49,093 nucleotides of DNA. Origin: Chryseobacterium gleum (GTDB lineage: Bacteria > Bacteroidota > Bacteroidia > Flavobacteriales_D > Sanyastnellaceae). Location of the stretch: contig CAMCVP010000016.1 of NCBI GenBank assembly GCA_945881835.1, positions 1 through 49,093 of the forward strand. Reading direction: 5' to 3'. The position numbers and the translations under genes are program-made. The notes under the pieces were generated by a model, which searched no databases, had not been told where the DNA came from, and saw only the letters and a program-made list of their open reading frames with translations. Below are positions 2,818 through 35,402 of this stretch, piece after piece; the stretch's first letter is position 1; each line of letters opens with the position of its first letter.

Positions 2818-2976
2818 TTACTTCATCCAACGAATAACCAATACGGTTAACGCCACAACAAACATCAAAATTGAAATTTTATTAATCCCGTGCATCATGC
2901 GCAGGTTAATGTCGCCTTGCTCTTTTTTGAAAAGATTCAAGGGATTCAGGTAGTGAAGAATTTTTTTAAGTATCAT
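2818..2976 (-). CDS. Small membrane protein, DUF6728-like
   Basis: A 52-residue minus-strand gene, from ATG at 2976 to TAA at 2818-2820. The translation begins MILKKILHYLNPLNLFKKEQ, contains NLRMMHGINKISI and ends in one hydrophobic helix (ISILMFVVALTVLVIRW). This is the pattern of the small DUF6728 proteins of Flavobacteriia, whose function is unknown. The start codon overlaps the ridA stop in the arrangement TAATG, so it is probably translationally coupled to ridA. The stop abuts that of gldD, converging head to tail with no spacer. Confidence 0.75.
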   Translation of the reverse strand: MILKKILHYLNPLNLFKKEQGDINLRMMHGINKISILMFVVALTVLVIRWMK

Positions 2977-3356
2977 TATTTTACAATTGCGATCATGCTA
3001 ATTTCAACCTTGGCGCTTTTCGGAAGTTGCGCAACTTCCACTGTTTCTCTAGCTGGAAATGGAGCCACCATATATTTGGCGTAGACTGCATTCACTTGCG
3101 CGAAGTCTGACATGCTTTGCAAGAATATGCTCGTCTTCACCACACTGCTGAAATCCGCGCCCGAAGCCTCGAGTAGCGCTTCCAAATTTTTCATTACAAG
3201 TTCTGCTTCCGCCTCAATGCCTGCCGGTGTGTACTCACCCGAATTGGGGTCAATTGCAATTTGTCCGCTGGTGTATACCATGCCGGTGGCTACAATCGCT
3301 TGGCTGTATGGACCAATAGGTGCAGGTACTTTTTTTGATTCAATTGCGGTTTTCAT
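2976..3356 (-). CDS. ridA: RidA family 2-iminobutanoate/2-iminopropanoate deaminase
   Basis: 126 residues, full length for RidA (YjgF/YER057c/UK114). It hydrolyses reactive enamine/imine intermediates released by PLP enzymes such as threonine dehydratase, protecting other PLP enzymes in the cytosol. Visible motifs: IGPYSQAI near residue 14, VYTSGQIAIDP, VMKNLEALLEASGADFSSVVKTSIFL, and PARETVEVAQLP, which holds the conserved arginine (R103) that contacts the substrate carboxylate. The ATG at 3356 gives the usual N-terminus. The downstream DUF6728-like gene overlaps its stop codon. Confidence 0.95.
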   Translation of the reverse strand: MKTAIESKKVPAPIGPYSQAIVATGMVYTSGQIAIDPNSGEYTPAGIEAEAELVMKNLEALLEASGADFSSVVKTSIFLQSMSDFAQVNAVYAKYMVAPFPARETVEVAQLPKSAKVEISMIAIVK

Positions 3357-3396
3357 TCGTAATGTTGCGTTGTTTTTTCAAACTTCGACATAAAAG

Positions 3397-3978
3397 GTGG
3401 AACAACCAAACAAGAACATATTATTCATAGACAACTTCGATTCGTTCACGTTCAACTTGGTGCACTATTGTGAAGCTTTAGGCGCACAAGTGCATGTGTT
3501 TCGCAACAACGAGATTCCATGGAACGAAGTTTTGAATTACGATGCGGTTGTGCTTTCTCCAGGCCCTGGATTGCCTGAAGAATCAGGCGATTTAATGAAG
3601 TTCATTTCCGAATATTGGAATCGAATTCCCATGTTGGGAATTTGTTTAGGCTGTCAAGCAATGGCCCTTCACGATGGAGGAAAACTGAAGAATTTAGATC
3701 AGGTCTTACATGGAACGTCAACTTCAGTAAATCAAATTCAACCTTCTATTTTTTTTGAAGGGTTACCGCAAGAATTTGAGGTTGGACATTACCACAGTTG
3801 GATTGTAGACAATGAATTCCTTCCTCCTTCGTTCGAGGTAACAGCAAGGAATACGAACGGATGGGTTATGGGTATTCAGCACAAAGCATTACCTTTAATG
3901 GCTGTTCAGTTTCATCCCGAATCGGTCTTGACGAAAGAGGGAATGCAGATGATGCGAAACTGGATTAATTCAATTTAG
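3397..3978 (+). CDS. Anthranilate/aminodeoxychorismate synthase glutaminase subunit
   Basis: 193 residues of a class I glutamine amidotransferase (TrpG/PabA type) that supplies ammonia for anthranilate or 4-amino-4-deoxychorismate synthesis. Marks: LFIDNFDSFTFNLVHY at the N-terminus, the oxyanion segment VVLSPGPGLPEESG, the nucleophile elbow LGICLGCQA with catalytic Cys at about residue 83, and VQFHPESV with the His-Glu pair. The start is GTG at 3397, since no ATG precedes the conserved N-terminus. No TrpE or PabB partner is adjacent, so TrpG and PabA cannot be told apart here; a lone gene may serve both pathways. Confidence 0.9.
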   Translation: MEQPNKNILFIDNFDSFTFNLVHYCEALGAQVHVFRNNEIPWNEVLNYDAVVLSPGPGLPEESGDLMKFISEYWNRIPMLGICLGCQAMALHDGGKLKNLDQVLHGTSTSVNQIQPSIFFEGLPQEFEVGHYHSWIVDNEFLPPSFEVTARNTNGWVMGIQHKALPLMAVQFHPESVLTKEGMQMMRNWINSI

Positions 3979-3981
3979 ATT

Positions 3982-4647
3982 ATGGAATTTTTGAAGAAAA
4001 GTGTTTTGATTTTTTGTTTGAATGTCCTGGCAACAGCGGCATTCAGCCAATCTTATCAGATTGCTGTTTTGAAATACAAAGGAGGCGGAGACTATTATGC
4101 GAACCCTACGAGTCTGCCGAATTTGGTGTCGTTTGTGAATCGCGAATTGAAGATGAACATCGCGAAAGAAACGCCATACGTGGAAGTGGGAAGTACAGAG
4201 TTGTTCAACTATCCGTTCGTGCACATGACCGGTCATGGCAATGTTGTTTTTTCCGCAGCAGACGCAGAGAACTTGAGAATCTACTTGTCAAGTGGAGGCT
4301 TCTTACACATTTCAGATAACTACGGATTAGACAAGTTCATTCGAAAGGAAATGAAGAAAGTTTTTCCAGATGCCGATTTCGTTGAAATACCGTTTGGACA
4401 TCCGGTGTATCATCAGAAATATGAATTCAATTCGGGCCTACCGAAAATCCATGAGCACGACAATAAGGCTCCGCAGGGATTGGGAATTTTTGTAGAAAAC
4501 CGCTTGGTGGTGTTCTATGATTTCGAGTGTGATTTAGGCGACGGATGGGAAGATTCGAATGTGCACAAGGACTCGGAAGCTGCACGCACCAAGGCTTTTC
4601 AAATGGGAGCGAATCTCTTGCAATATGCATTCACCGGAGGTAAATGA
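3982..4647 (+). CDS. DUF4159 domain-containing exported protein
   Basis: 221 residues with a signal peptide (MEFLKKSVLIFCLNVLATAAFSQS). The rest matches DUF4159: YQIAVLKYKGGGDYYANPTSLPNL, TELFNYPFVHMTGHGNVVFS, LRIYLSSGGFLHISDNYG, FVEIPFGHPVYHQKYEF, and a final FDFE-like segment (VVFYDFECDLGDGWED). DUF4159 resembles a glutamine-amidotransferase-like fold and is found near MoxR/aerotolerance genes, but no catalytic role is established. It starts 3 nt after the amidotransferase stop, and its end overlaps the next gene by 23 nt, so these three genes probably form one operon. Confidence 0.82.
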   Translation: MEFLKKSVLIFCLNVLATAAFSQSYQIAVLKYKGGGDYYANPTSLPNLVSFVNRELKMNIAKETPYVEVGSTELFNYPFVHMTGHGNVVFSAADAENLRIYLSSGGFLHISDNYGLDKFIRKEMKKVFPDADFVEIPFGHPVYHQKYEFNSGLPKIHEHDNKAPQGLGIFVENRLVVFYDFECDLGDGWEDSNVHKDSEAARTKAFQMGANLLQYAFTGGK

Positions 4648-5401
4648 AGAATTGCGCGAAGCGCTGGAACGGTCTGTAGACAAATACAACCGCAGTTCTT
4701 TCATTGAGGAAGATCCGATTAGCATTCCGCATTCATTCACGAAGAAGGAAGACATTGAGATTGCTGCTTTTCTAACAGCCACCATGAGTTGGGGCAATCG
4801 AAAATCTATTTTAGTCAGCGCGAACAGGCTCATGGAATACATGGATCGTTCACCCTATGACTTTGTTTTGAATGCGCAGCCGGAAGATTTCAAAAGTTGG
4901 AAGCCCTCTATTCATCGAACGTTCATGAAAGAAGATGTGGCTTTTTTTATTCAGGCGTTGCGAAGAATGTATGTGGAAGAAGGTGGAGTGGAAGGTGTTT
5001 TTACGCAAGGATTTTCATTTGGCAATTCGAAGGAAGGCATTGAGTTTTTCAGAAATAAATTTATTGGGAATGAAGCGCATCGTGCCTTGAAGCACGTTGC
5101 CAGTCCAGAGCGGAACAGTACCGCGAAGCGCATAAACATGTTCTTGCGTTGGATGGTTCGCAACGATAAGCGGGGTGTCGATTTTGGAATGTGGAAAGGA
5201 ATCTCTCCATCTCAATTGTCTATTCCGCTGGATGTCCATTCGGGAAGAACCGCTCGTATGTTCGGGCTTTTATCTCGCACGCAATCGGATTGGAAGGCTG
5301 TTGAGGAATTGGATCGCAATCTTCGGATGTATGATTCTGCTGATCCGGTGAAATATGATTTTGCGTTGTTTGGCTTATCGGAAGCCGGATTTGAAAAATG
5401 A
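4625..5401 (+). CDS. TIGR02757 family protein
   Basis: 258 residues from ATG 4625, which lies within the end of the DUF4159 gene; the frame is open further upstream, but that stretch is a shadow. Conserved landmarks are EEDPISIPHSFTKKEDIEIAAFLTATMSWGNRKSIL, RINMFLRWMVRNDKRGVDFGMWKGISPSQLSIPLDVHSGR and DPVKYDFALFGLSEAG. This family is common in Bacteroidota and resembles helix-hairpin-helix base-excision glycosylases in its latter half (PLDVHSGR...DPVKYDFALF). The enzymatic role is unproven. The stop codon touches a strong hairpin shared with the opposing response-regulator gene. Confidence 0.82.
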   Translation: MHSPEVNEELREALERSVDKYNRSSFIEEDPISIPHSFTKKEDIEIAAFLTATMSWGNRKSILVSANRLMEYMDRSPYDFVLNAQPEDFKSWKPSIHRTFMKEDVAFFIQALRRMYVEEGGVEGVFTQGFSFGNSKEGIEFFRNKFIGNEAHRALKHVASPERNSTAKRINMFLRWMVRNDKRGVDFGMWKGISPSQLSIPLDVHSGRTARMFGLLSRTQSDWKAVEELDRNLRMYDSADPVKYDFALFGLSEAGFEK

Positions 5402-5447: not shown

Positions 5448-5945
5448 TTACGAAAGCATTTGTTGACGTAGTAGAAATTCGAATTGAGCGTTTTGTTTTT
5501 CAAGTCGCTTGATTGAATTTTCTTTTTCTGCCATTTCTTGATAGTTCTTGAAAGCTGCTTGCAGCGTGTCGTTCATCTCTTCCTTTTTGAAAGGTTTTGT
5601 AGACACACGGAATACACGTGCTTGATTGATAGCGCTTAGCATGGCTTCAGCGGTAATGTTTCCGGAAAGAAGAATACGTTGGGCTTTCGGGAATTCTTGC
5701 GCCATGCGTTGTAGGAAGTATGTTCCAGACATGCTAGGCATTTCAAGATCTGATATAACCACATGAATGTTTTCGGATTTCATAATGTTGTACGCATCGA
5801 AAGGATCGTTTGCAGTGAATACATTATAATCGTTACCGAAAAGTGATTTGAAGGTGTGAAGCACCATCGCGTCGTCGTCTAGGCAAAGCACATTAATCAT
5901 TGTGTTGGATGAATTGTTGGGAGAGATTGAATGATTCATTTTCAT
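5448..5945 (-). CDS. Receiver-only response regulator with C-terminal coiled coil
   Basis: 165 residues from ATG 5945; an alternative ATG at 5900 starts exactly at the receiver fold (INVLCLDDDAMV). All receiver landmarks are present: the DDD acidic cluster, phosphoacceptor Asp near residue 66 (VVISDLEMPSMSG), LLSGN with the Thr/Ser switch position, and STKPF with the conserved Lys. A roughly 40-residue charged helical tail (EKENSIKRLEKQNAQFEFLLRQQ) follows and there is no DNA-binding output domain. It starts 16 nt after the XRE regulator stop, so both form an operon. Its receiver resembles that of the 11455-12039 regulator, suggesting paralogues. Confidence 0.82.
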   Translation of the reverse strand: MKMNHSISPNNSSNTMINVLCLDDDAMVLHTFKSLFGNDYNVFTANDPFDAYNIMKSENIHVVISDLEMPSMSGTYFLQRMAQEFPKAQRILLSGNITAEAMLSAINQARVFRVSTKPFKKEEMNDTLQAAFKNYQEMAEKENSIKRLEKQNAQFEFLLRQQMLS

Positions 5946-5961: not shown

Positions 5962-6423
5962 TTAACGCGACTCATTCTTTTTAGGTTTCGTTTTTTCTGA
6001 TTTTTTTTCGGAAGTGTAGGAATCATGGGTGATTCGGGGCTTTTTATTTTGCAGTTCTGCAATGGCTCTAAGGAGTGATTGTGTGGTTTGAATGGATTCA
6101 TCGAGTCGAGATTGAAGAATAGCATTCTCTTCCATCATGCGTTTTGTAATGGCGTTTGTTTCTTCGATGACTTCGGCTTTGATTTTTTCAACGTCGACAT
6201 GGGCGTATGCTTCCGATACCATGAGAAGCGAAGGGGTAACTCGATAGAGTGACGCGAGTTTTTTGAAGTCTTCGATTTTAACGTGACGTTGTCCGTTTTC
6301 GAGTCGGCTGTATTCCGACTGAGAGATTCCGAGTTGATCGGCGATGTATTCTTGTTTGAAAGAATACAGCATTCTGAGTTGTTTAAGCTTAGGGTAGTTT
6401 GTGTTTCTGAAAACAGTTTTCAT
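5962..6423 (-). CDS. XRE-family transcriptional regulator with coiled-coil tail
   Basis: 153 residues. The N-terminal HTH_3 domain (about 10-68) is clear: KLKQLRMLYSFKQEYIADQLGISQSEYSRLENGQRHVKIEDFKKLASLYRVTP. Residues ~75-130 form a charged helix (EKIKAEVIEETNAITKRMMEENAILQSRLDESI), likely for dimerisation, and the C-terminus is lysine-rich and disordered. Targets are unknown. A perfect TTTTCGAA dyad lies 58-76 bp upstream of the start codon and could be its own operator. The response-regulator gene follows 16 nt downstream. Confidence 0.85.
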   Translation of the reverse strand: MKTVFRNTNYPKLKQLRMLYSFKQEYIADQLGISQSEYSRLENGQRHVKIEDFKKLASLYRVTPSLLMVSEAYAHVDVEKIKAEVIEETNAITKRMMEENAILQSRLDESIQTTQSLLRAIAELQNKKPRITHDSYTSEKKSEKTKPKKNESR

Positions 6424-6501: not shown

Positions 6502-7584
6502 TTATTCCCCCACCCTCGAGTAGATCAACGCCTTAATTTTATCTGGTATTGGCAGTAAACCTAGCTTTTGCGCTTGGTGGATGGCTTGCGGCTCAGAAAA
6601 TGGAATTTCATTGCCTTTAGATTGACTCCATTTATTGTAAGTCTCACCAGTTTTTTTTCGTATTGTTTTTGAGAAGTAATCGCCAATTTGCTGTTCAGTA
6701 ATGTTAGAATATAAGCCTGTGCTTTCTCTAATTTGGTTGTTCACATTTACAGCAACGTCTTTGTTGCGGTCTGTATATTGACGCTCGTGCAAAAACATTA
6801 GATATTTGATTGGAAAGTTCAATAGCGTGGCATTCAAAACGAAAGCAATGCAATTCATTTGCTCTGTTTGAGTAAAATCAGAGACAAACCTAGGACTAAC
6901 AATATCTGAAATCTCATCAGTCGTTACAGTCCAAAAGTCAAAATGTAAATTTGGAAAAGACAAATCACTTTGGGCCTCATCTATCGTTAAAAATGATTTT
7001 TTTTCGAGACTTAAGATTTGTTTTTGGATAGATGAAATTTTACTTTTTGGAAATAAGGATCGGAATTTTACTTTGTAATGATCTTGGTTCACCTTGAATG
7101 TGAAACAGGGTAAGCATAATACGGTATAAGCAACTCCGGCATAACGGATAACATGAGGTAAATCTTCTGGATGAATGAAATTATCTGCCGCGAATCCGAG
7201 AAAAGATTCAATTGTAAACTCATTAGGATCGATGCCAATTACCGAGGATAATGTGTTTCCTACATGAATATACTTTTGTTCTTTGGTGCTGTATACAGTC
7301 TGAAATTCGTTTACTCCGAGCCTTGTGTTTTCGAGATATTCTATGATTGATTCGTAGGATTTTCCTTTTACGTAAGTACCCTCAGCATCTGCCAAAATCT
7401 TTAGTGCAATGGCAGGATGATTAGAATCGATTAAACTTTGAATAAGTTCAAATTTTGAATTTATTATATCAAGTATTGAATCAGAAGTTTCCGAACCGAG
7501 TTCGTTTTTGGAATATTCGCTTGCAATTTCTTTCCAGGTTGGAAACTTAATCGAAACTTCTTTTGCATCATCAGAGGTATTCAT
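6502..7584 (-). CDS. Hypothetical protein with PAS-like central domain
   Basis: 360 residues, not recognised as a named family. The central part (about 88-190) has the look of a PAS sensory fold: NEFQTVYSTKEQKYIHVGNTLSSVIGIDPNEFT, then FIHPEDLPHVIRYAG (the HPEDLP motif typical of PAS/PAC domains) and FTFKVNQDHYKVKFRSLFPK. The N-terminus is helical. The C-terminal 100 residues are charged and helical (QYTDRNKDVAVNVNNQIRESTGLYSNITEQQIGDYFSKTIRKKT), perhaps a DNA-binding or dimerisation part, but no standard HTH is clear. No signal peptide or membrane segment. It is divergent from the ThiF operon across a 79-bp gap and AT-rich like it, so a regulator of that operon is a reasonable inference. Confidence 0.7.
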   Translation of the reverse strand: MNTSDDAKEVSIKFPTWKEIASEYSKNELGSETSDSILDIINSKFELIQSLIDSNHPAIALKILADAEGTYVKGKSYESIIEYLENTRLGVNEFQTVYSTKEQKYIHVGNTLSSVIGIDPNEFTIESFLGFAADNFIHPEDLPHVIRYAGVAYTVLCLPCFTFKVNQDHYKVKFRSLFPKSKISSIQKQILSLEKKSFLTIDEAQSDLSFPNLHFDFWTVTTDEISDIVSPRFVSDFTQTEQMNCIAFVLNATLLNFPIKYLMFLHERQYTDRNKDVAVNVNNQIRESTGLYSNITEQQIGDYFSKTIRKKTGETYNKWSQSKGNEIPFSEPQAIHQAQKLGLLPIPDKIKALIYSRVGE

Positions 7585-7663
7585 AGTAATAAATATAAAA
7601 AAAATCTTAATAAACGGCTTTCTTTCACTTATTAATGTTGAAAAGCTAAAATATTCGGAATCA

Positions 7664-8731
7664 ATGGATACTTATACCAATGTAATTTGCAATATGGAGA
7701 ATCATGTAGAAAAAAATGAAGTGGCAATGAATCTAATGCCTAAGTTTTTAAGCTATGAGTATGTATTGCAAAACATCAAAAACATCAAACATGATTTTGA
7801 GTTTGTCCAACTCTCTAAAGATCAAATTAAAGAACTTGAGGCAAATGTTGATAAAGAATTTTTATCACCGGAATCTATCCAATTGCTTTCAAGTGAATAC
7901 AATCAAGTTCCGGTTGAATATGGAAGTTGGATGTATTTTCCAATCAGAAATAAGTGTATTCAGATATTACCAAAGACAGATTTTATAGAATTAAGAACGT
8001 GTAGAAATAGATTAAAGATTAATAGAAATGAACAACTAGATTTATCGAAGAAGTCAATAGCTGTTATTGGTCTTTCTGCGGGTAATGCGGTAGTAAACGC
8101 TTTAATCGCTGAAAGGATTTGTGGCAGGATAATACTATTTGATTTTGATAATTGCGAGTTGAGCAACCTTAATAGGTTAAATGCCGGAATATTTGACTTG
8201 GGTTTGAATAAGTGTATAATTTCTGCTAACAGTATATTGGAAAGGGACCCATATATAGATGTTGAGATTCATGTAAGTGGATTTATAAATTCGAAAGAAC
8301 ACGCTGATATAATTGAGTCTGTTGATTTAGTTGTCGACGAATGTGATTCTTTTGATATTAAGATTGTCTTGAGAGAATTATCAAGAAAGTTTCGAAAACC
8401 TTTGTTAATGCATACTAGTGAAAGGGGTATCACTGACATTGAACGGTACGATCTTATTAAAGATTTGCCGATTTTTCATGGATTATTGAATGGCGTTGAT
8501 TTGAGTGATAAAAGTAAAGTTTTGATGGCTATTATCAATCCGCAAATTGTTTCAGAAAGAATGCTTCATTCATTTTCGGAATTAGGTAAGTCATTAAAGT
8601 CTTGGCCCCAATTGGCTACCGAGGTTTTCTCAGGTGGAGCTAATTTGGCAGGAATAGCAAGGATGATTCTATTAGATCAAAAGGTAGTCGGAGGTAGGTA
8701 CTTTTTTAACACAGAAGAGGTTGGCGGATAA
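7664..8731 (+). CDS. ThiF/E1-like adenylyltransferase-fold protein
   Basis: 355 residues from ATG 7664. The first ~125 residues are a poorly characterised helical region. From ~130 a Rossmann-type E1/ThiF/MoeB fold is visible: SIAVIGLSAGNAVV (glycine-rich ATP loop, 136-141), IILFDFDNCELSNLNRL (Asp160, Asp162, Asn168, Arg171, matching the DxDxVexSNLNRQ motif) and ESVDLVVDECDSFDIK (Asp228). The CxxC zinc pairs of MoeB/ThiF and an obvious catalytic cysteine are not seen. E1-like enzymes adenylate a carboxyl terminus, often of a peptide or ubiquitin-like protein; the substrate here is unknown. Its end overlaps the acyltransferase gene by 11 nt. AT-rich, suggesting acquisition. Confidence 0.82.
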   Translation: MDTYTNVICNMENHVEKNEVAMNLMPKFLSYEYVLQNIKNIKHDFEFVQLSKDQIKELEANVDKEFLSPESIQLLSSEYNQVPVEYGSWMYFPIRNKCIQILPKTDFIELRTCRNRLKINRNEQLDLSKKSIAVIGLSAGNAVVNALIAERICGRIILFDFDNCELSNLNRLNAGIFDLGLNKCIISANSILERDPYIDVEIHVSGFINSKEHADIIESVDLVVDECDSFDIKIVLRELSRKFRKPLLMHTSERGITDIERYDLIKDLPIFHGLLNGVDLSDKSKVLMAIINPQIVSERMLHSFSELGKSLKSWPQLATEVFSGGANLAGIARMILLDQKVVGGRYFFNTEEVGG

Positions 8732-9446
8732 TCCATTGACATATCAGGAGGATTTTGGTGAATTGGATTTTGTCCTTTCACTTCATCGTGCATCCGATGA
8801 TTATTCAATGTGTGAAAATTTTGTGTTAGGTCATCGACAATTATTGTCCGTTAATGATGTTGATTTAGGACCATTGGATACATCATGGTTTAGTTCGACT
8901 AATGTTTATCTGCTAGTTGTAAGAAGGGCTGGATTAGATGAAATTTTAGGTGGTGCAAAATTGGTTATTTATGATAACAATGGAAATCTTCCGTTATTGA
9001 AATTGTTGAATGATGATTATCCGGAGTTGGTGGATTATTTGAATGAATATGACGACAATGGGTTAGTTGAAATTTCTGGCTTATGGAATTCACGAAGCGT
9101 AGCTGGATTAGGATTAGGAAGTGAGCAGTTAATTCGAACAAGTATTGCAATATGTGGTTTGTTGGAGATTGCTACTGTGGTAACTTTTTGCAGTCCTTTT
9201 GTAACAAGATTTGCTGAATTGTATGGGTTTATTCCGCTATCGAAGTTCGGTAGTAACGGTTCTATCCCTTTTCCTGATAATAGATGGATGAGCACCATTA
9301 ATATATTATCTGATCCCCACGTAATGTCAAAGGCTGATGAGATAGAGAGGAGGATTATTTTTGATTTGAGAGAAGAACCAAATCAAACTAGAAAATTCAA
9401 TTCTAGGGGTAAAGAGATTACAATAAAATTTGAATTGAAATTATAA
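8721..9446 (+). CDS. GNAT/autoinducer-synthase-like N-acyltransferase
   Basis: 241 residues. The start is TTG at 8721 (or TTG 8736), because no ATG precedes the conserved part. The fold pattern is that of GNAT enzymes close to LuxI/FeeM-type N-acyl synthases: a charged early helix (ENFVLGHRQLL), a strand pair (NVYLLVVRRAGLDEILGGAKLVIYD), then VEISGLWNSRSVAGLGLGSEQLIRTSIAICGLLEIATVVTFCSPFVTRFAELYGFIPL. The last stretch parallels the W/VELSRxxV...ligand and neighbour segments of those families. Substrate and product are unknown, and a protein-acetylating or other small-molecule role remains possible. It overlaps the ThiF gene upstream, and its stop overlaps the kinase start (TAATG). Confidence 0.65.
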   Translation: MADNPLTYQEDFGELDFVLSLHRASDDYSMCENFVLGHRQLLSVNDVDLGPLDTSWFSSTNVYLLVVRRAGLDEILGGAKLVIYDNNGNLPLLKLLNDDYPELVDYLNEYDDNGLVEISGLWNSRSVAGLGLGSEQLIRTSIAICGLLEIATVVTFCSPFVTRFAELYGFIPLSKFGSNGSIPFPDNRWMSTINILSDPHVMSKADEIERRIIFDLREEPNQTRKFNSRGKEITIKFELKL

Positions 9447-11458
9447 TGAGAGCAGTAATTACTTCAATTTTTTTAAGTGTACTACTTCTCTATTCTGGCG
9501 AGTTATTTTCACAGAGTCATTTAGATTTTGATGTGAGTAATTCAAATTCGATTTCTCCGAATTTAGGATTGAGTGAGGATACTGTGAAATTAGAGTTGTC
9601 GATTGTTAATCCTAATGGGAGTATTTTATTTTTCAGGTCTCATTCTTATGATTATTTTTCCGTTACAGATAATTTAGGAAGAGTGATATTATCAGATGAG
9701 GATTATCAAAAAGGTATTCAGCATTTCAAATTAGCGGATACACTCGAGCACCAAGATTTTCAGATTAGAATTTTATCGGGAGAGCAAATTTTGTTGCCGA
9801 TTGTTGTATCCGATGAAACCACCATTTTGAATGATAACAGAATTAAGGATGCCTTTTACTTGTTTTTCGCAGGAATTTTTGTTTCCATAATACTCTATAA
9901 TTTATTTCTATTTGTCTCTCTAGGTGATGTTTTATACCTGATATATGTTATTGCCACTATTTTCATTGGCTTAGTGCAACTCCATTTTGGAGGAAAACTT
10001 ACTGAATGGTTCTATGACAGACAATCAATTTTTGCTGTTTACGACACTCAAATATTAGGAGCGCTGAGCGGTGTTTCAACAATCGTTTTCGCAAACTCAT
10101 TTTTACATACTAAGCGCTATTGTAACTGGGTTTATAAAATATCGTTACTCTCGATATTTTTATATTCTTTGAGTCTTATTCTGTTGTGTTTTTCTCTGCC
10201 AACGGTAAGTTATCAAATAATTAATTTGAATGCGAGCGTCTCGCTATTATTAGTCGTTGCCTCGGTATATGCAATCAAAGGAGGTAATAGACAAGCGCGA
10301 TTTTTCTTATTCGCTTGGTCCTTCTTTTTAATTGGTGTTACCGTATTTGCACTTAAAGATTTCGGAATCCTGCCATTCAACGCGTTCACGAATTTCGCTT
10401 TGCCTGTTGGGTCGGTGGTGGAAATTTTGTTGCTGTCGTTTGCGCTGGCAGATCGCATTAACGTGCTTAAACAAGAAAAAGAACTCTCACAACAACAGGC
10501 GTTCGTTGCCATGAAAGAAAACGAACGACTCGTGACGGAACAGAATATTCAACTCGAGAAAAAAGTGCACGAACGTACCGCCGATCTCGAAAACAGAAAT
10601 ACCGAATTGCATACCGCAATGAACGACCTCCGCATGACACAACAACAACTCGTTGAGTCTGAAAAATTAGCGTCGATTGGACAAATGACTGCGGGTATTG
10701 CTCACGAAATAAATAACCCAATCAACTTCGTTCAATCCAATGTAGGACCGCTTAAACGCGATATTGATGAAATACTTGAATTGCTTTCTCAGCTTGCGCA
10801 TATCGACGAAAACAAAGACCTGCTCGAACAAGTAAATCACTTGAAAAGTCAGTACATTAAACTCGATGTCGATTACTTGAAAAAGGAAATTGAACAACTG
10901 CTTAACGGAATTGAAGATGGATCGAAACGCACCGCTGAAATCGTAAAAGGTCTTCGCGTTTTCTCTCGAATGGATAGAAACGAATTAGTCTCAGCAGATA
11001 TTAACGAATGCCTTCATTCAACACTGGTTGTGATGAAAAATATGACCAAGGCAGAGGTAACGCTCAATGTTGAGTTGGGAGAAAACATACCGAAAATAAA
11101 GTGCTATCCAGGTAAGCTCTCTCAAGTGTTCATGAACTTGGTGACAAACGCCGTTCAAGCTACTCGTCTCCCAGGAAGGCAACCAATTGACCGTGTAATA
11201 AACGTTCGCTCATTCTTGAATGAAAATAAAATTTGCGTTGAAATTCAAGACAACGGAAACGGCATTCCAATGGAAATTCAAGAGAAAATATTTGAGCCAT
11301 TCTTCACTACAAAAGATGTTGGAGAAGGCACGGGGCTTGGACTAAGCATAGTAGCAGGAATTGTTGGTGAACACAACGGTCAACTCACGTTCACAAGTAA
11401 AGCAAACGAAGGCACTACTTTTCTTATAACTTTACCCACCGATTCTAAGAACCCATGA
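9446..11458 (+). CDS. 7TMR-DISM sensor histidine kinase
   Basis: 670 residues. A signal peptide (to ~22) and a periplasmic beta-rich domain (7TMR-DISMED2-like, ~23-130) come first. About seven membrane helices follow (~135-345, starting AFYLFFAGIFVSIILYNLFLF), then a coiled coil and a complete kinase core: H-box SIGQMTAGIAHEINNPINF with His420, N-box QVFMNLVTNAVQA, G1 DNGNGIP, F-box FEPFFTTKDVGEGTGLGLSIV. It should sense an extracytoplasmic ligand and phosphorylate the receiver encoded next, with which it overlaps (ATGA). The first ~900 bp are AT-rich (35% GC in the row at 9541) and the rest is host-like (50% at 10381), pointing to a recombination joint inside the gene. Confidence 0.9.
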   Translation: MRAVITSIFLSVLLLYSGELFSQSHLDFDVSNSNSISPNLGLSEDTVKLELSIVNPNGSILFFRSHSYDYFSVTDNLGRVILSDEDYQKGIQHFKLADTLEHQDFQIRILSGEQILLPIVVSDETTILNDNRIKDAFYLFFAGIFVSIILYNLFLFVSLGDVLYLIYVIATIFIGLVQLHFGGKLTEWFYDRQSIFAVYDTQILGALSGVSTIVFANSFLHTKRYCNWVYKISLLSIFLYSLSLILLCFSLPTVSYQIINLNASVSLLLVVASVYAIKGGNRQARFFLFAWSFFLIGVTVFALKDFGILPFNAFTNFALPVGSVVEILLLSFALADRINVLKQEKELSQQQAFVAMKENERLVTEQNIQLEKKVHERTADLENRNTELHTAMNDLRMTQQQLVESEKLASIGQMTAGIAHEINNPINFVQSNVGPLKRDIDEILELLSQLAHIDENKDLLEQVNHLKSQYIKLDVDYLKKEIEQLLNGIEDGSKRTAEIVKGLRVFSRMDRNELVSADINECLHSTLVVMKNMTKAEVTLNVELGENIPKIKCYPGKLSQVFMNLVTNAVQATRLPGRQPIDRVINVRSFLNENKICVEIQDNGNGIPMEIQEKIFEPFFTTKDVGEGTGLGLSIVAGIVGEHNGQLTFTSKANEGTTFLITLPTDSKNP

Positions 11459-12039
11459 ACGATATGATTAAAGTACTTTACCTCGACGACGAAGAAAATA
11501 ACCTCATTGCTTTTAAAGCACTTTTCAGAAGAGAGTTCGATGTATTTACTACAACTTCTCCGCAAGAGGCCGTTGCATATTTGAACGCAAACGAGGTTCC
11601 TATTATTCTTTCCGATCAGAAAATGCCTGAGCTAAGCGGTGTAGAGTTTTTTGAACTTACGCTAAACGATTTTCCAAACGCTGTGCGCATCCTTGTTACG
11701 GGATACGCAGATATTGAAGCGGTAATCGATGCAATCAATCGCGGTCAGGTTTATCGTTATGTTGCAAAACCTTGGAATGAAAATGATCTTCGCGTTTGTT
11801 TGTTAAACGCCGCAGAGCGTTACGAAATGAATACCCAATCAGGCGATTCAGATTCTAGAACAACGAAATGGAAGCAAGCGAAAGCGCGCATTCAAGATGC
11901 GATTCATAAAGTGAAAACTGTTGTTTCTTCATGGAAAGGATCGAACCAGCCGGTGCCCGCTGATTCATTGAATGAAGTAGTAAACGAATTGAATGCTCTT
12001 GAAGAAAGCGTAAACGAAGTCTTCGAAGAAGCCCGCTAG
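11455..12039 (+). CDS. Receiver-only response regulator
   Basis: 194 residues. The receiver domain spans ~1-125: KVLYLDDEENN, phosphoacceptor Asp54 (IILSDQKMPELSG), LVTGYAD with the switch Thr, and AKPW with the conserved Lys. The last ~65 residues are helical (KWKQAKARIQDAIHKVKTVVSSW ... ELNALEESVNEVFEEA) with no recognisable DNA-binding or enzymatic output. The start overlaps the kinase stop (ATGA), making it the cognate partner. How the signal goes further is not visible; it may act through protein contacts, for example with the similar regulator at 5448-5945. It ends 2 nt from the convergent exporter gene, with no clear terminator. Confidence 0.88.
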   Translation: MNDMIKVLYLDDEENNLIAFKALFRREFDVFTTTSPQEAVAYLNANEVPIILSDQKMPELSGVEFFELTLNDFPNAVRILVTGYADIEAVIDAINRGQVYRYVAKPWNENDLRVCLLNAAERYEMNTQSGDSDSRTTKWKQAKARIQDAIHKVKTVVSSWKGSNQPVPADSLNEVVNELNALEESVNEVFEEAR

Positions 12040-12041
12040 TC

Positions 12042-16020
<3,979 letters not shown>

Positions 16021-30745: not shown

Positions 30746-32392
30746 TTAATTGTCGTCATTTTTTGAAAGTGGTTCTACTTCATTTATTTCGTTTTGTATG
30801 CCCTGTTCACGATATTCAGAAGCAATGTTTATTTGAATGACTTCTCGTTCATTTTTCCAATATATTATGCTTAAAAATGCAATTGCTGTTTGAACCTTTA
30901 AGTCTTGATTATCTGGCTCTTCTTTTAAATTCCATTTTTCTTTAATTGCTATATTTTCTTTTTTATTGATGTCGATAACGGAAGCATATATTTTGAGTTT
31001 TTCGTTTATGCATTTTAATTGCATATCTATCAAGTCATCTTCCCTTAAATCTTTGTGTTCTATTGCAGGTAGATCTTTCCCTCTTAGAACAAATAACGTG
31101 TCCAGAAAATGATATTCTGTGGAAGGAATGTAATGAACGATTCTTTTAAATTTGCTTGAGTCAATTATTTCTTTTGTCTGAAATCCAATATTCACGCCAA
31201 TTATTATAATGTCGTTGTTATTCCCTATTATTTTTGCCAATGCAACAATTATATTCTCCTTATTGAGTAAATATCTTTTTGTTCTCGCAATTAAAAATGA
31301 GTTTGGGATTAATCGTTTTATTTTGCTTGTTGAAATTGCTTCTGCAAATACGGTATCGTAATTTAAATTAGGAATATCATTGTCAGTAAATGCTGATTTC
31401 GACATTATAATTATATCTCCATTGACGCTCAATTTAAGTTCACTTTTTAAATGTGTAGCTTCTTTTGGTATGAATACACTATTATATTCTTCAAATGCAC
31501 TTGATATGATTTCATTTGATTGAGTGTAAAATTTTTGAATTTTTTCATCGGATAGTTCTGTGTTATGTTTTTGCTGTCTAATTTTATTTTTAACGGCTTC
31601 TTTTAAGTCGATAATGAAAGTAAAAAAATCATCACGTTTTGTTTCAACTATTTTTTCAAGTTCAAGGTCTTTTATCAATTCCTTGTTTGATAGTACAGTG
31701 TTTAAACATCTTTCAAAAAAGGAAGCACTATCAAGCCAACTACTAAGTTCTACAACATCGTCAGGTAGATTTGGAAGTGCTGTAAAGTCCTGATATATGT
31801 AATATTGATGAAGTGAATACTGTCTTAAAAATAAAGTAGATATATAACAACAAATCCAATAATTTACTTGACGTCTGTTACCTAGATTATCAAGCTCGGG
31901 AAAATAGTATTTAAAATCTATAGGGATTTTGTGCTTAAATTCATTTCGGAAACTTTCAAACCAATAAAATATTTGCGTCATTGTTTCTGGAAGCAATAAA
32001 TATTTCGGAGGTTGTGATTGAGAATATTCTAATAGATAATTTAAAGTCTTGAATTGCTTACGATATAGCATTAGACCGCCAAGGGCATAATGAAACTCAA
32101 GAAATCTATTTCGTTCGTCATTTCGTCTGTCAACTTGTTCTTTATTATTTATTTCTAGTTCACCATTTTGGGAAGAATAATCTGGCATCACTCCTTGAAG
32201 CCGATAATCAAAATATTGACTTGAATTTGACCAAAACATTTTTATCAATCTGGGATTATCGCATATGTTATAAATATTTCTCCAAAGCCAACTGTAGGTT
32301 TCTTCTGAAATAATAATGTCTTCAAAGTCTTCACCAAGTAGCCATACTCCGCTAACTGCTCTATGTTCGATTGCTCTAAGCTTTGTTTTCAT
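30746..32392 (-). CDS. Hypothetical protein, accessory region
   Basis: 548 residues, no family recognised. No signal peptide or membrane helix. The first half is aromatic-rich and helical (FLEFHYALGGLMLYRKQFKTLNYLLEYSQSQPPKYLLLPETMTQIFYWFESFRNEF). The second half has a mixed alpha/beta stretch (LNKENIIVALAKIIGNNNDIIIIGVNIGFQTKEIID), and the tail is acidic. The start overlaps the upstream membrane-protein gene by 17 nt, so the two are almost certainly made together. Strongly AT-rich (25% GC in the row at 31261, against 47% in the integrase at 29041), pointing to transfer. A soluble partner of the membrane protein, in an island setting typical of defence genes, is a guess. Confidence 0.72.
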   Translation of the reverse strand: MKTKLRAIEHRAVSGVWLLGEDFEDIIISEETYSWLWRNIYNICDNPRLIKMFWSNSSQYFDYRLQGVMPDYSSQNGELEINNKEQVDRRNDERNRFLEFHYALGGLMLYRKQFKTLNYLLEYSQSQPPKYLLLPETMTQIFYWFESFRNEFKHKIPIDFKYYFPELDNLGNRRQVNYWICCYISTLFLRQYSLHQYYIYQDFTALPNLPDDVVELSSWLDSASFFERCLNTVLSNKELIKDLELEKIVETKRDDFFTFIIDLKEAVKNKIRQQKHNTELSDEKIQKFYTQSNEIISSAFEEYNSVFIPKEATHLKSELKLSVNGDIIIMSKSAFTDNDIPNLNYDTVFAEAISTSKIKRLIPNSFLIARTKRYLLNKENIIVALAKIIGNNNDIIIIGVNIGFQTKEIIDSSKFKRIVHYIPSTEYHFLDTLFVLRGKDLPAIEHKDLREDDLIDMQLKCINEKLKIYASVIDINKKENIAIKEKWNLKEEPDNQDLKVQTAIAFLSIIYWKNEREVIQINIASEYREQGIQNEINEVEPLSKNDDN

Positions 32393-33113
32393 CTTTTGCT
32401 ACTATTTCGTTTAGTTTACTAACAAGAAAGTATAAGTCAACGGGATAAATCAATGGTTTAGACTTATCGTGGTTCTTTCTAATGTTTGCAAATAATGAGT
32501 AATAAAATTCAAGTAAAGTCTCCTGGAGATGTTCGTCTTGCTTTTCAATTGCATAAAAAGCAATTTCATTAATAGCTTTTAAATGATAATTCTGTATTTC
32601 AGTATCAGGTTTTGATTTTTTGTATTCGTTAATAACGTGTGTCAAAAGAGATTTCGATTTCCCACTATATAGCGCCACTTTACCTAACCATATAAAAAAG
32701 AAGATTATCAAAAGTATAGACAATAATAATACAAGGTAATTTGCTGAGTTATTAATAAACCAATTGTCCCAATTGAATGGTGGTGGTATTTTAAAGATTA
32801 AAAACAAGAAAGAAAATAGAGTCGAAAAAAGAGTTAATTTAAACACAGTAATGCAAAAAAAACTTTTGTGAATTTGGATTCTTAATACTTTTTGTGGGAA
32901 TTCATTGTTAAAAAGTACTGGAATATACTCGGAAGAGTACTTGTCTCCAATGTTTGAAATTTTGTCAATAATAATTGGATAAGCAATTCCTAATATAGCG
33001 ATATCAATGCCTACACAAATTTCGATAATATTTTCAGGTGTCATCTTGTGGTATCTATTTTTTATGATTGCATGTAACATTTCGGAATTAACTGAATTTG
33101 GCGATTTCGGCAT
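32376..33113 (-). CDS. Hypothetical membrane protein, accessory region
   Basis: 245 residues with three predicted membrane helices: about 29-47 (EICVGIDIAILGIAYPIII), 83-108 (SFFCITVFKLTLFSTLFSFLFLIFKI) and 122-148 (NYLVLLLSILLIIFFFIWLGKVALY). The soluble C-terminal half (~150-245) is helical, with NEYKKSKPDTEIQNYHLKAINEIAFYAIEKQDEHLQETLLEFYYSLF. No known family. Overlaps the 548-aa gene downstream, suggesting a two-component membrane/cytosol unit. Same AT-rich composition as its neighbour. Confidence 0.72.
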   Translation of the reverse strand: MPKSPNSVNSEMLHAIIKNRYHKMTPENIIEICVGIDIAILGIAYPIIIDKISNIGDKYSSEYIPVLFNNEFPQKVLRIQIHKSFFCITVFKLTLFSTLFSFLFLIFKIPPPFNWDNWFINNSANYLVLLLSILLIIFFFIWLGKVALYSGKSKSLLTHVINEYKKSKPDTEIQNYHLKAINEIAFYAIEKQDEHLQETLLEFYYSLFANIRKNHDKSKPLIYPVDLYFLVSKLNEIVAKDENKA

Positions 33114-33249
33114 GCGACAATGTCTGTCAGCACTGATCTTGATGTAAAAAGAAATGTTTAATTAACCTCTTCACCCGCCATTGTGCCAAACGCTTGTTGG
33201 CTCTTGGCGTTATTCTGTTATCTATTGTTTTAAAAATAGTTACAATTTT
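33114..33249. other. Boundary between AT-rich gene units with nested inverted repeats
   Basis: Contains an ACCCGCCATTGTGC stretch followed by GCCAA/TTGGC and AACGC/GCGTT nested inverted repeats (about 33171-33222). It is more GC-rich than the flanking genes. A comparable sequence type lies at the other gene-unit end near 30700. Confidence 0.4.
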
Positions 33250-34782
33250 TCAATTTGTTTCTTCTGATGTCAGGGCAGTCCTAATATTTTCGGCTGCCTT
33301 GTCAAAACGTAATTTGTTATTAACACTCCATTCGCTTATACCTTCTTCGGTTTTCTTTGTAATCGTCATAAATTGTGGCTCATTAAATATCATTTTGTCC
33401 CAGCTACTTACTCTGCCCTCTTTAATTGCTAATTCAACAATATCATAAACCTCATTTTGAATTGGATCTGGCAAGATATTTAGAATATTCGCTGATTTCT
33501 CAATAAAGTTATTGTCTATTTCTAGTTCGTCTTTTAGAGAAATAAATCCACCCAATGCGATTCCAGCTTTGAACCAATCACTATACAATAAACTTCCGCT
33601 TGTGATTGAGCTTACTAAATTCAGACTTTTCCAATGATTGTTTTTCGCTGCTGATTTTAAAAGTCTTCCTAAATATATTTGTTCTGATTTGTTTATTACG
33701 TTAATTAATTCGATTGCTTTATCCATTCTCAAATAGTCAATTACCGGATTTTGTTTCTCGTATTGGAAACTTGCCAAATCTTCGCATATTCTTTTAAAGG
33801 TCGCTTTAATACTTCCGTAGTAATTTATTGAGGTTTCAAATGATAATCCGCTAAGTTTTTTATGATACCTGTTTTTAAAACTTTCTTCTAAAGAGTTGTT
33901 TTGAACAAGATTGCCTGCAATTGCTTTCAGATTATTAAGTTTTGTACTTTCTGTTTCTCCTTCTAAGTATGCGATTAACATTTCCTTTATTCTGTCAGGC
34001 AATAATGGCCAAGTATCTTGATGCACAAACCCTATAAAGCATACATAAGTAAAATTAGTTACCCGGTTTTCTAAGGACCAATCGACATTATCTAGTGGTA
34101 GTGAAGTATTAATAAGAAGTTCAACTAGAAAACAGCTCAATTTTCTCTGCTCATTGAATTTATCTTCACTTTGACTAAGTTTTCCAATTTTAAAAAGCAA
34201 AGTTTTGAAAAAGAAAGGATGAAGATTCAATGGCGTTCTAGATATTGTTCTTTTTGCATAGTTTCTGACTTGCGCAATATCGGTTGGAAGGAAAAAGGGC
34301 TTTGAACTTATGTTATCGGATAAATCTGTCAGATAGGTCTTGTTAAAATGTAATTGTTTCAACAAAGTAATTCTTGCCGCTTGTCCTAATATATGCCTCA
34401 CTTCATCAACTTCAGGATTTAAATTGTATGGATGAGCAAATAAGCAGCGTTGTTCCCATAAGAAAGCAACTTTACTGTAATCGGGATTGTCAATAATGCC
34501 ACAAATCTTGGCTTCTTCAAAAATTAGTTTGTCAGCCGAAAGTTTTTCATTCTCAGCATCTTCAATTTTCTGTTTTGCCGTCGTTGCTCTGTTGTCACCT
34601 AAATTTGATAGAATAAATATTTTACGTTTTAACGATTCGATTATTGAAATCCAAGTCATTATATAGGCAGCACGAAGTTGTCCATTGAGAAAACAATGTG
34701 ATGCTTCTTCAAATAACACCTTATCGTCAGCTTCAATAATTTGAGCTTTTAAGTTTTCAATCCAATCTTTGTCTTCTCTCAT
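33250..34782 (-). CDS. HEPN-like domain protein, accessory region
   Basis: 510 residues from ATG 34782; a TTG at 34812 would add ten. The N-terminal ~150 residues read like a HEPN-type helical domain: LFEEASHCFLNGQLRAAYIMTWISIIESLKRKIF then WEQRCLFAHPYN, giving an R-x4-H motif (Arg112, His117), the hallmark of HEPN RNases, though Cys replaces the usual polar residue after Arg. The rest is a long helical repeat-like region without a known family. HEPN proteins occur in toxin-antitoxin and antiphage systems, and no nucleotidyltransferase partner lies next to it. AT-rich. RNase activity is inference only. Confidence 0.65.
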   Translation of the reverse strand: MREDKDWIENLKAQIIEADDKVLFEEASHCFLNGQLRAAYIMTWISIIESLKRKIFILSNLGDNRATTAKQKIEDAENEKLSADKLIFEEAKICGIIDNPDYSKVAFLWEQRCLFAHPYNLNPEVDEVRHILGQAARITLLKQLHFNKTYLTDLSDNISSKPFFLPTDIAQVRNYAKRTISRTPLNLHPFFFKTLLFKIGKLSQSEDKFNEQRKLSCFLVELLINTSLPLDNVDWSLENRVTNFTYVCFIGFVHQDTWPLLPDRIKEMLIAYLEGETESTKLNNLKAIAGNLVQNNSLEESFKNRYHKKLSGLSFETSINYYGSIKATFKRICEDLASFQYEKQNPVIDYLRMDKAIELINVINKSEQIYLGRLLKSAAKNNHWKSLNLVSSITSGSLLYSDWFKAGIALGGFISLKDELEIDNNFIEKSANILNILPDPIQNEVYDIVELAIKEGRVSSWDKMIFNEPQFMTITKKTEEGISEWSVNNKLRFDKAAENIRTALTSEETN

Positions 34783-35402
34783 GTTGTATTTTCTTTTTAT
34801 GTTTTCAGCCAACTAAGATATATACGCGATTTCTATTCGATTATTAAGATAGGTTCCTATTTAAAAGCACAACATCATTTAACAAGTTAGCCCTTCAATA
34901 GAAGTAAAAAAAGGAGAATATCCAAATTTGGCCTAATCCCCCAACTCCCTCTCAATCCATCTCCAAAATCTCATCTCGTCAAAAGGCAAGATTCATGATT
35001 CAAACACAAGAGATTTTAATATTTACAAAATCTCAACATTGAATTTTTAAATGATTAAGACGTTTCATTATTCCGAATGAACTTGATTCCAATTATTACT
35101 TCATCTAGTTTTTATCATCGTTAAATCGCCCCCAAAGCAATTCAATTAAATGTCTGTAAGCAATACGTCAATAGACGTATTTAATAATATTCGAATGAGG
35201 GTTAAATATTGGATATACGTCCTTTGACGTATTTTTCAAAGAATTCGAAAATGTGTTTTTGTCTTGAAGGCACGGTAAATAAAGGGTTTTCCGAGCGGAA
35301 CTACCTTTTTCGCGTAGATTATTTAAAAAAGAATTTAATGAACTTTCATTTTATTTGTAAGGACTAAACTCTAAGAATTTCAAATAGTGACCTTAACCAG
35401 AT
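34783..35402. other. 620-bp non-coding region
   Basis: No supported gene. It holds GAGATTTT/AAAATCTC arms (35010-35017, 35027-35034, with another AAAATCTC at 34965-34972) and two dyads with a common ATACGTC/GACGTAT core listed separately. It probably includes divergent promoters for the HEPN-like gene and the large plus-strand operon. Confidence 0.5.
35162..35232. promoter_or_regulatory. Pair of operator-like dyads upstream of the RHS operon
   Basis: Dyad 1 (35162-35181) is AATACGTC-AATA-GACGTATT; dyad 2 (35215-35232) is ATACGTC-CTTT-GACGTAT. Same half-sites and same 4-bp gap with different central bases. Centre-to-centre distance is 52 bp, about five helical turns, so both face the same side of DNA. 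They lie 170-240 bp before the first gene of the operon, fitting sites for a dimeric regulator. Confidence 0.55.

Follow-up and report, generated by a model that had tools for sequence, protein, structure and literature searches.

Oxazolone-type enzymes encoded beside a 7TMR-DISM sensor kinase: a probable polymorphic self-signalling system in Bacteroidota

The ThiF-group enzyme TrzS and the acyltransferase TrzA convert acyl-CoA and tryptophan into N-acyl tryptazolones, with ATP required for cyclisation and O2 for desaturation; the oxazolone ring is opened by acid and by alcohols (PMC12856293). Related pathways yield tyrazolones (PMC10404671), and ThiF/nitroreductase genes lie beside producers of N-acyl dehydrotyrosine (PMC12479983). 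The physiological role of oxazolone lipids is called unresolved, with signalling offered as a possibility, and c-di-GMP genes adjoin trzAS in Mycobacterium tuberculosis (PMC12856293). At a nocardial locus in our own collection (L119), the downstream gene encodes a GAF-GGDEF-EAL protein. Here we describe a four-gene set in a 49,093-nucleotide stretch of Bacteroidota DNA (contig CAMCVP010000016.1 of assembly GCA_945881835.1, Chryseobacterium gleum; hereafter the window), in which an enzyme pair whose characterised relatives make N-acyl oxazolones in vitro (PMC12856293) is encoded beside a 7TMR-DISM histidine kinase and a receiver. The acyltransferase and the sensor half of the kinase change together, in discrete types, on a conserved kinase core. 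We consider it probable that the four genes form a self-signalling (quorum-sensing type), polymorphic two-component system with an acyl-amino-acid or oxazolone signal.

The genes lie on the plus strand and overlap in series. The ThiF/E1-like gene (7664..8731) starts with ATG, its frame being open from a TTG at 7508, and overlaps by 11 nt the acyltransferase gene (8721..9446), which starts with TTG. The junction with the kinase gene (9446-11458) reads 'TAATG' at 9446, and that between the kinase and receiver (11455-12039) genes reads 'ATGA'. These coordinates and junctions confirm the overlaps described in the initial annotation, and the four overlapping genes are real; because the same set is conserved in many genera, a chance arrangement is implausible. 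The products had been read as an E1-like enzyme with GLSAGN and DFDNCELSNLNR motifs, an acyltransferase of autoinducer-synthase-like pattern, a 7TMR-DISM kinase and a receiver-only regulator, with a PAS-like protein encoded divergently, and each of these assignments stood up to the comparisons below. What such motifs do in proteins of the E1, GNAT, kinase and receiver families is general knowledge.

The window ThiF protein matches Pfam PF00899 (E 6.2e-17). Its best NCBIfam model is the Rv1355c family NF005901 (E 4e-90), matched over positions 30-337 of 722; the score of 303 bits falls below the curated whole-protein cut-off of 476 bits because the other (oxidase) half is missing. The enzyme thus belongs to the oxazolone-cyclase (Rv1355c/TrzS) group. 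GLSAGN stands at residue 136 and DFDNCELSNLNR at residue 160, both within the stretch that aligns with UBA5, and an alignment of 28 sequences including the window's has 32 invariant columns, among them D160, D162, R171, K183 and D228. The third component of oxazolone pathways, a flavin-dependent oxidase of the nitroreductase superfamily fused or adjacent to the cyclase, is absent from the window; the window genome has two nitroreductases (open frames of 191 and 212 amino acids), both on other contigs.

The neighbouring acyltransferase has no Pfam or NCBIfam match up to E 1 and no significant sequence match in the PDB. Within its family, the general GNAT model matches 3 of 29 members (best E 2e-6) and Pfam FeeM (PF21926) just one (E 0.017), the window protein giving no FeeM match at E 1, so sequence does not place it among the FeeM/NasY synthases. 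An AlphaFold2 model (predicted local distance difference test score, pLDDT, 90.6) is closest in the PDB to FeeM (2g0b; Foldseek E 2.1e-8, TM 0.59/0.75) and then to acyl-homoserine lactone (AHL) synthases. In the VIA comparison FeeM scores Z 16.6 (root-mean-square deviation, rmsd, 2.8 over 174 residues), and within 1 Z of it are LasI (16.2), the plain GNAT 1xeb (16.3), RpaI and the plain GNAT ElaA. RimI, a ribosomal-protein acetyltransferase, reaches 13.0, below all of these; the outcome that the initial annotation had raised against its own proposal, an ordinary enzyme of that kind, was not borne out. Judged by the model, the gene next to the cyclase would encode a FeeM/LuxI-type amino acid N-acyltransferase, a predicted N-acyl amino acid synthase. 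Invariant columns in the 29 sequences include H38, W56, G78, P91, E117 and W122. When profiles were compared with the neighbours of ThiF in Brevibacillus (L063) and in a myxobacterial metagenome-assembled genome (MAG; L105), nothing matched, which left no bridge to actinobacterial TrzA.

The E1-like fold, together with weak sequence similarity of the ThiF protein to UBA5, MccB and Bub/Bil enzymes, is what one would expect if the two enzymes modified a protein or peptide by E1-like conjugation and this conjugate were the signal. We regard such a scheme as highly improbable. In the family of the best curated model, the characterised member acts on small molecules as a cyclase-oxidase (PMC12856293); the predicted fold of the acyltransferase resembles that of FeeM; and the gene overlap leaves no space for a peptide gene between acyltransferase and kinase. 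No peptide signal gene was seen at the locus, embedded reading frames not having been examined.

Pfam finds in the window kinase a 7TMR-DISM_7TM domain (residues 136-337), HisKA and HATPase_c. Motifs at residues 420 (HEINNP), 602, 619 and 628 (GTGLGLS) are what we take to be the usual kinase boxes. On the identity comparisons below, the gene divides into a type-specific N-terminal sensor (9446..10350), which takes in the periplasmic region and the larger share of the membrane domain, and a remainder conserved between types (10351..11458), which covers the last stretch of that domain together with the cytoplasmic core. The extracellular DISMED2 domain was found by Pfam in the kinase of locus L057 and not in that of the window. 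The response regulator (11455..12039) has a receiver domain (PF00072, E 9.5e-15) with Asp54 and Lys105, followed by a tail of ~80 residues. In the other genera scanned, the fourth gene is longer and encodes receiver-HisKA-HATPase (L029:10088-11571, L057:12913-14004), with a receiver-only gene after it in L029; across the named loci introduced below it usually has ~360 residues and matches both profiles. This gene order is likely to represent a phosphorelay, of which the window genus would have a shorter form.

To what extent do the four genes travel together? Among 60 genomes of relatives, 48 had a ThiF match at E ≤0.001, many of them weak, and we took 32 loci (E ≤1.1e-32). The acyltransferase is present at 30 of these, the kinase at 28 and the receiver at 26. 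At loci with room (>3500 bases of contig downstream of ThiF and >1000 upstream), acyltransferase, kinase (sensor and core) and receiver are all present in 25/25. A second set of named loci, the best 80 of 570 encoding a ThiF relative and therefore biased toward window-like loci, has the acyltransferase at 71, the kinase at 65 and the receiver at 67, or 65, 63 and 64 of the 71 with room. One locus of this set (L108) is apparently the same contig as L024 of G006, so that one genome is counted in both sets. Eight named loci with room lack the acyltransferase or kinase: five from other phyla (four from Actinomycetota, one from Brevibacillus), two from Saprospiraceae (L123, described below, is one of them) and one from Niabella, where the kinase frame is in pieces. 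The oxidase is fused to ThiF at 8/32 relatives' loci and 43/80 named loci; at the contig-cut locus L043 it apparently lies on another contig, L153. Of nine same-genus genomes, seven have a strong ThiF match, the others being G002 (71% complete) and G008 (84% complete). Of 72 genomes assigned to what we take as Algoriphagus, 54 carry the kinase, as do 49/50 of those ≥90% complete and ≤5% contaminated. The kinase belongs to the cassette, and at the loci compared Bacteroidota ThiF/acyltransferase pairs nearly always adjoin it, as the initial annotation had asked of other genomes, with the bias of the named set kept in mind.

Relatives encode 0 to 4 proteins of the 7TMR-DISM class each (at least one in 49/60), and the window genome encodes two. 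We inspected 20 DISM regions outside the loci already in hand, a portion of all such matches. A cassette-type kinase core occurs in six; the other 14 are without one, L141 giving a marginal match. Two of the six (L152, L153) lie beside an acyltransferase, three (L144, L145, L151) lie at a contig end with a receiver next, and L139 is alone. The L139 kinase (2921-4897, minus strand, in G020) has a cassette-type sensor and core and stands beside a 121-residue receiver with no acyltransferase; it is possibly an eavesdropper. Two further arrangements were seen. In a Saprospiraceae MAG (L123:6409-8307, plus strand), acyltransferase and ThiF form a single 632-residue frame with no kinase nearby. In Brevibacillus borstelensis (L063:6914-8927, plus strand), a ThiF relative (44% identical) follows a 283-residue protein without a Pfam match, a possible sign of inter-phylum transfer in which ThiF has another partner.

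Within the window genus, we compared the window with six genomes. The closest by flanks is G001 (locus L027), whose upstream flanking proteins are 96-100% identical to the window's; the XRE-type regulator, the response regulator of the four-gene set and the MMPL transporter are 99%, 98% and 97% identical. Between these lies a divergent allelic block (6571..10350) of PAS-like codons 1-338, ThiF, acyltransferase and kinase sensor, in which protein identity falls to 42% (PAS-like), 39% (ThiF) and 26% (acyltransferase). Along the kinase, identity per 30-residue bin is 10-43% over residues 1-270, 56% over 271-300 and 80-100% above 300. Sliding DNA identity per 150 bases is mostly 88-100% outside the block, although parts of the kinase core and of the MMPL gene reach only 77-84%, and 38-70% inside. 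The left edge, a drop from 93% to 60% at 6571 in the last codons of the PAS-like gene, is located within ~30 bases; on the right, identity rises from 73% to 86-96% around 10351, kinase codon 302. The G001-like block is found in G003, G004 and G006, with a more distant relative of it in G007. G005 has a window-like block (PAS-like 77%, ThiF 72%; its contig ends in ThiF, so only these two are comparable), although by its flanks (80-93%) it is less close to the window than G001 is. The history of the block thus differs from that of its flanks. Both alleles are backed by independent assemblies, and in both the window and G001 the block is lower in G+C than its surroundings.

These alleles also bear on whether the product is a weapon. 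In that scheme, an N-acyl amino acid or oxazolone acts against competitors in the manner of an antibiotic, and the kinase senses the cell's own product to control production or immunity. N-acyl tyrosine derivatives are antimicrobial (PMC12856293), and toxin self-sensing would fit a sensor that co-varies with its synthase equally well. However, within the swapped block we saw neither a gene for resistance nor one dedicated to export, and the neighbouring MMPL transporter lies outside it, nearly unchanged relative to G001. We consider this alternative unlikely, although it is the foremost of the competing accounts.

Algoriphagus provides a larger sample: 54 genomes with the kinase gave 53 loci, 52 of them complete (left out were the fragment G495 C100, weak second matches in G459 and G454, and the contig-cut L186). 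Identities of both acyltransferase and sensor are bimodal across the 52 species. Three sensor types (19, 26 and 7) and three acyltransferase types result, and they agree in 52/52. Median same-type and different-type identities are 0.78/0.44 for the acyltransferase and 0.59/0.30 for the sensor, compared to 0.67/0.62 for ThiF, 0.83/0.82 for the kinase core and 0.81/0.79 for the receiver. One caveat here is that the clustering thresholds were picked after the identity ranges were known. Pairing is perfect at sensor thresholds of 0.36-0.42 with acyltransferase thresholds of 0.5-0.6; the adjusted Rand index is 0.98 at sensor 0.45-0.5 with the same acyltransferase range, and 0.71-0.73 with acyltransferase 0.65. 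Among 18 named genomes, the acyltransferase and sensor groups coincide, save two type-C sensors split at the threshold, and core and receiver identities show no difference between groups.

The boundary of the type difference again lies within the kinase. Between loci L057 and L066, six of seven flanking proteins are 91-100% identical and the seventh 83%; the ThiF-oxidase is 83% identical and the acyltransferase 46%, and kinase bins run at 20-43% up to residue 360 and then at 76-100%. Over the whole set the difference likewise ends near kinase position 360, with same/different-type values of 0.96/0.86 and 0.68/0.63 and then within 0.04 of each other. The last predicted membrane segment (318-346) precedes this boundary. 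The exchanged block is wider in the window genus than in Algoriphagus, taking in ThiF and the PAS-like gene. Other genera carry related pairs: Aquiflexum has a type-B acyltransferase (0.61) with a type-B sensor (0.61), and Echinicola, Lunatibacter, Lunatimonas and Cyclobacterium are nearest type C (acyltransferase 0.59-0.65, sensor 0.41-0.45). Type S3 is ThiF-only in 7/7, and S1 and S2 have the oxidase fused in 45/45.

Trees were built by quick searches for the 52 rows and carefully for the 18 named genomes. In the 52-row trees, the fewest type changes needed were two (the minimum) for both acyltransferase and sensor, ten for ThiF, where S3 is one clade, and 12 for core plus receiver, with seven forced by starred branches per large type. 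The careful trees gave six changes for core plus receiver and six for ThiF, versus two each for acyltransferase and sensor. None of 200 shuffles on the 52-row core-plus-receiver tree was as low as 12, so the types are not randomly scattered and their pattern is partly inherited with the kinase core; in the 18-genome set, 27/200 shuffles were as low as the observed six. In both the window genus and Algoriphagus, then, we find what defines pherotypes: discrete types that diverge together, a conserved core, and a type tree unlike that of the flanks.

A different explanation of the pairing is that the kinase senses some other cue (envelope stress, oxygen, nutrient) and regulates lipid genes, with sensor and acyltransferase diversifying separately and being held together by linkage. 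The Algoriphagus acyltransferase and kinase genes overlap or nearly touch (median -3 nt), so that one exchange carries both. Yet the oxidase domain, used as a linkage control, is equally close on the other side (median gap 2 nt) and is uncoupled from type: its tree requires seven changes, six of them forced, and its last 60 residues show 0.50/0.47. Pairing is perfect despite the forced core-plus-receiver changes within each large type, and in both genera, which belong to different families, the exchanged segment stops close to where sensor meets core. We hold this explanation to be improbable, somewhat more so than the antibiotic one.

A synthase matched to the ligand-facing half of a kinase, with both free of the rest, resembles a self-signal and its receptor, and self-signalling is the reading that we prefer. 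The acyltransferase would acylate an amino acid, and the ThiF-like enzyme would activate the carboxyl with ATP and close the ring to an oxazolone, or leave a derivative. Since the desaturating flavin oxidase is absent from the window genome, a saturated product is predicted there. The product would leave the cell and be read by the periplasmic/7TM half of the adjoining kinase, which would phosphorylate the receiver encoded beside it. With the same core behind different acyltransferase-sensor pairs, each type would hear its own signal and not those of others. In S1 and S2 it is the acyltransferase, rather than the cyclase or oxidase, that tracks the sensor, as would fit a sensor that reads the identity of the acyl group or amino acid; the type without the oxidase would fit an additional difference in chemistry. 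The initial annotation had supposed that a small molecule or modified peptide is made, exported and sensed; making and sensing gain support from the sensor co-varying, in two genera, with the acyltransferase where the core does not, and the modified peptide is not favoured. In its broadest form, the proposal is of an undescribed, widespread but patchy form of Bacteroidota signalling: an N-acyl amino acid/oxazolone language with swappable acyltransferase-sensor dialects, of which at least three would occur in Algoriphagus and two in the window genus, some predating the genera in which they are found, kept apart by selection for self-recognition, and one set apart chemically by the absence of the desaturating oxidase. 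We lean toward this fuller version as well, with noticeably less assurance than for the signalling system as such.

Several results weigh against these proposals. Because the acyltransferase gene directly adjoins the sensor, part of their pairing is owed to linkage, an effect that the oxidase control narrows without eliminating. Comparable discrete types were not found in Dyadobacter (12 loci) or Sphingobacterium (7). Over 90 loci the sensor does not stand out in partial correlations, the acyltransferase-sensor value (0.53) equalling the acyltransferase-core value (0.53), with ThiF-sensor at 0.30 and ThiF-core at 0.61; sensor and core are separated by the within-genus type analysis and not by these correlations. 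The claim consequently rests on two genera. No match to the oxidase profile was found in the window genome or in eight same-genus genomes, and the window and G005 ThiF proteins sit on a very long branch (2.52), so the chemistry in the window organism may be different. Among the loci examined, no kinase stands beside the actinobacterial, Brevibacillus and two Saprospiraceae ThiF relatives. The cassette is patchy in the phylum: in an even draw of 395 genomes, 11 have it at E 1e-40, counting that of the window. Finally, Pfam recognises no output domain in the receiver protein.

The remaining features of the region lie around the four genes. The divergent PAS-containing protein (6502..7584, minus strand), replaced together with the enzymes and sensor, has no Pfam match, and its model (pLDDT 80.6) contains a PAS fold. 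The longest match of the model is to 3clo, a protein from Bacteroides that carries a LuxR DNA-binding domain, at Z 9.5 though with an rmsd of 10.0; structure comparison gave no firm fold match for the C-terminal helices. It is a candidate second (cytoplasmic) receptor or regulator. Outside the block are an XRE-type helix-turn-helix (HTH) regulator (5962..6423, minus strand; HTH_3, E 3.4e-13), a candidate partner, and a divergently placed receiver protein (5448..5939, minus strand; PF00072, E 2.9e-17), whose open frame reaches 6125, the start near 5939 being our reading of the translation. An opposite-strand receiver of ~155-170 amino acids flanks many Bacteroidota loci. On the other side, the MMPL/RND-family transporter gene (12042-14615, minus strand) is convergent with the receiver gene and two bases away from it; the transporter is possibly the exporter of the product. 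Elsewhere in the window, 30746-34812 (minus strand) holds open frames of 548, 245 and 520 amino acids at ~32-33% G+C with no Pfam match at E 0.001, possibly a recently acquired segment, and 39699-45377 (plus strand) holds an open frame of 1892 residues, also with no Pfam match at E 0.001.

How does this locus compare with described systems? TrzA-TrzS, TyzA-C-B and OxzA-B likewise place a ThiF cyclase of the same group beside an N-acyltransferase (PMC12856293, PMC10404671), and the word 'kinase' is absent from the main text of both reports. The window and its genus differ in being without the oxidase, and the Bacteroidota loci in adding a 7TMR-DISM kinase and a receiver of their own. In Vibrio, LuxM-LuxN and CqsA-CqsS share with the window a small-molecule synthase beside a sensor kinase with multiple membrane helices, although their synthases are of other families and neither system is known to include a ThiF cyclase or a 7TMR-DISM sensor. 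In comQXPA and agr, the signal-making part and the sensor half co-diverge while the kinase core and regulator are conserved, and agr has distinct communication groups (pherotypes). Distinct communication groups, as proposed here, are also described for comQXPA (PMC4408185, PMC4008528). The signals of comQXPA and agr are modified peptides, whereas here the specificity unit is acyltransferase plus sensor. The N-acyl amino acid synthases FeeM (PDB 2g0b) and NasY share the fold predicted for the window acyltransferase but have no significant sequence match to it, and NasY-type genes also occur near ThiF and nitroreductase genes (PMC12479983).

The initial annotation knew of no described system with this set of genes. 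As to the enzyme pair, that no longer holds, since tyz, trz and oxz are known (PMC10404671, PMC12856293); the combination with the polymorphic kinase was not found in the literature that we searched. Our search of the open literature returned, among the matches listed, no described system of this make-up and no acyltransferase-sensor co-variation. A 2009 survey of the E1-like superfamily reportedly mentions secondary-metabolism operons, so an earlier mention of part of the operon is possible. The enzymes, the kinase class and pherotypes are thus each known, and their combination and co-variation were not met with in the literature searched. Genome evidence here ties an oxazolone enzyme pair to a dedicated Bacteroidota sensor kinase, with acyltransferase and sensor changing as a unit, and makes the role of oxazolone lipids directly testable in cultured Algoriphagus strains. 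If the proposal is true, these lipids gain their missing physiological role, and a non-peptide system joins comQXPA and agr among those with pherotypes.

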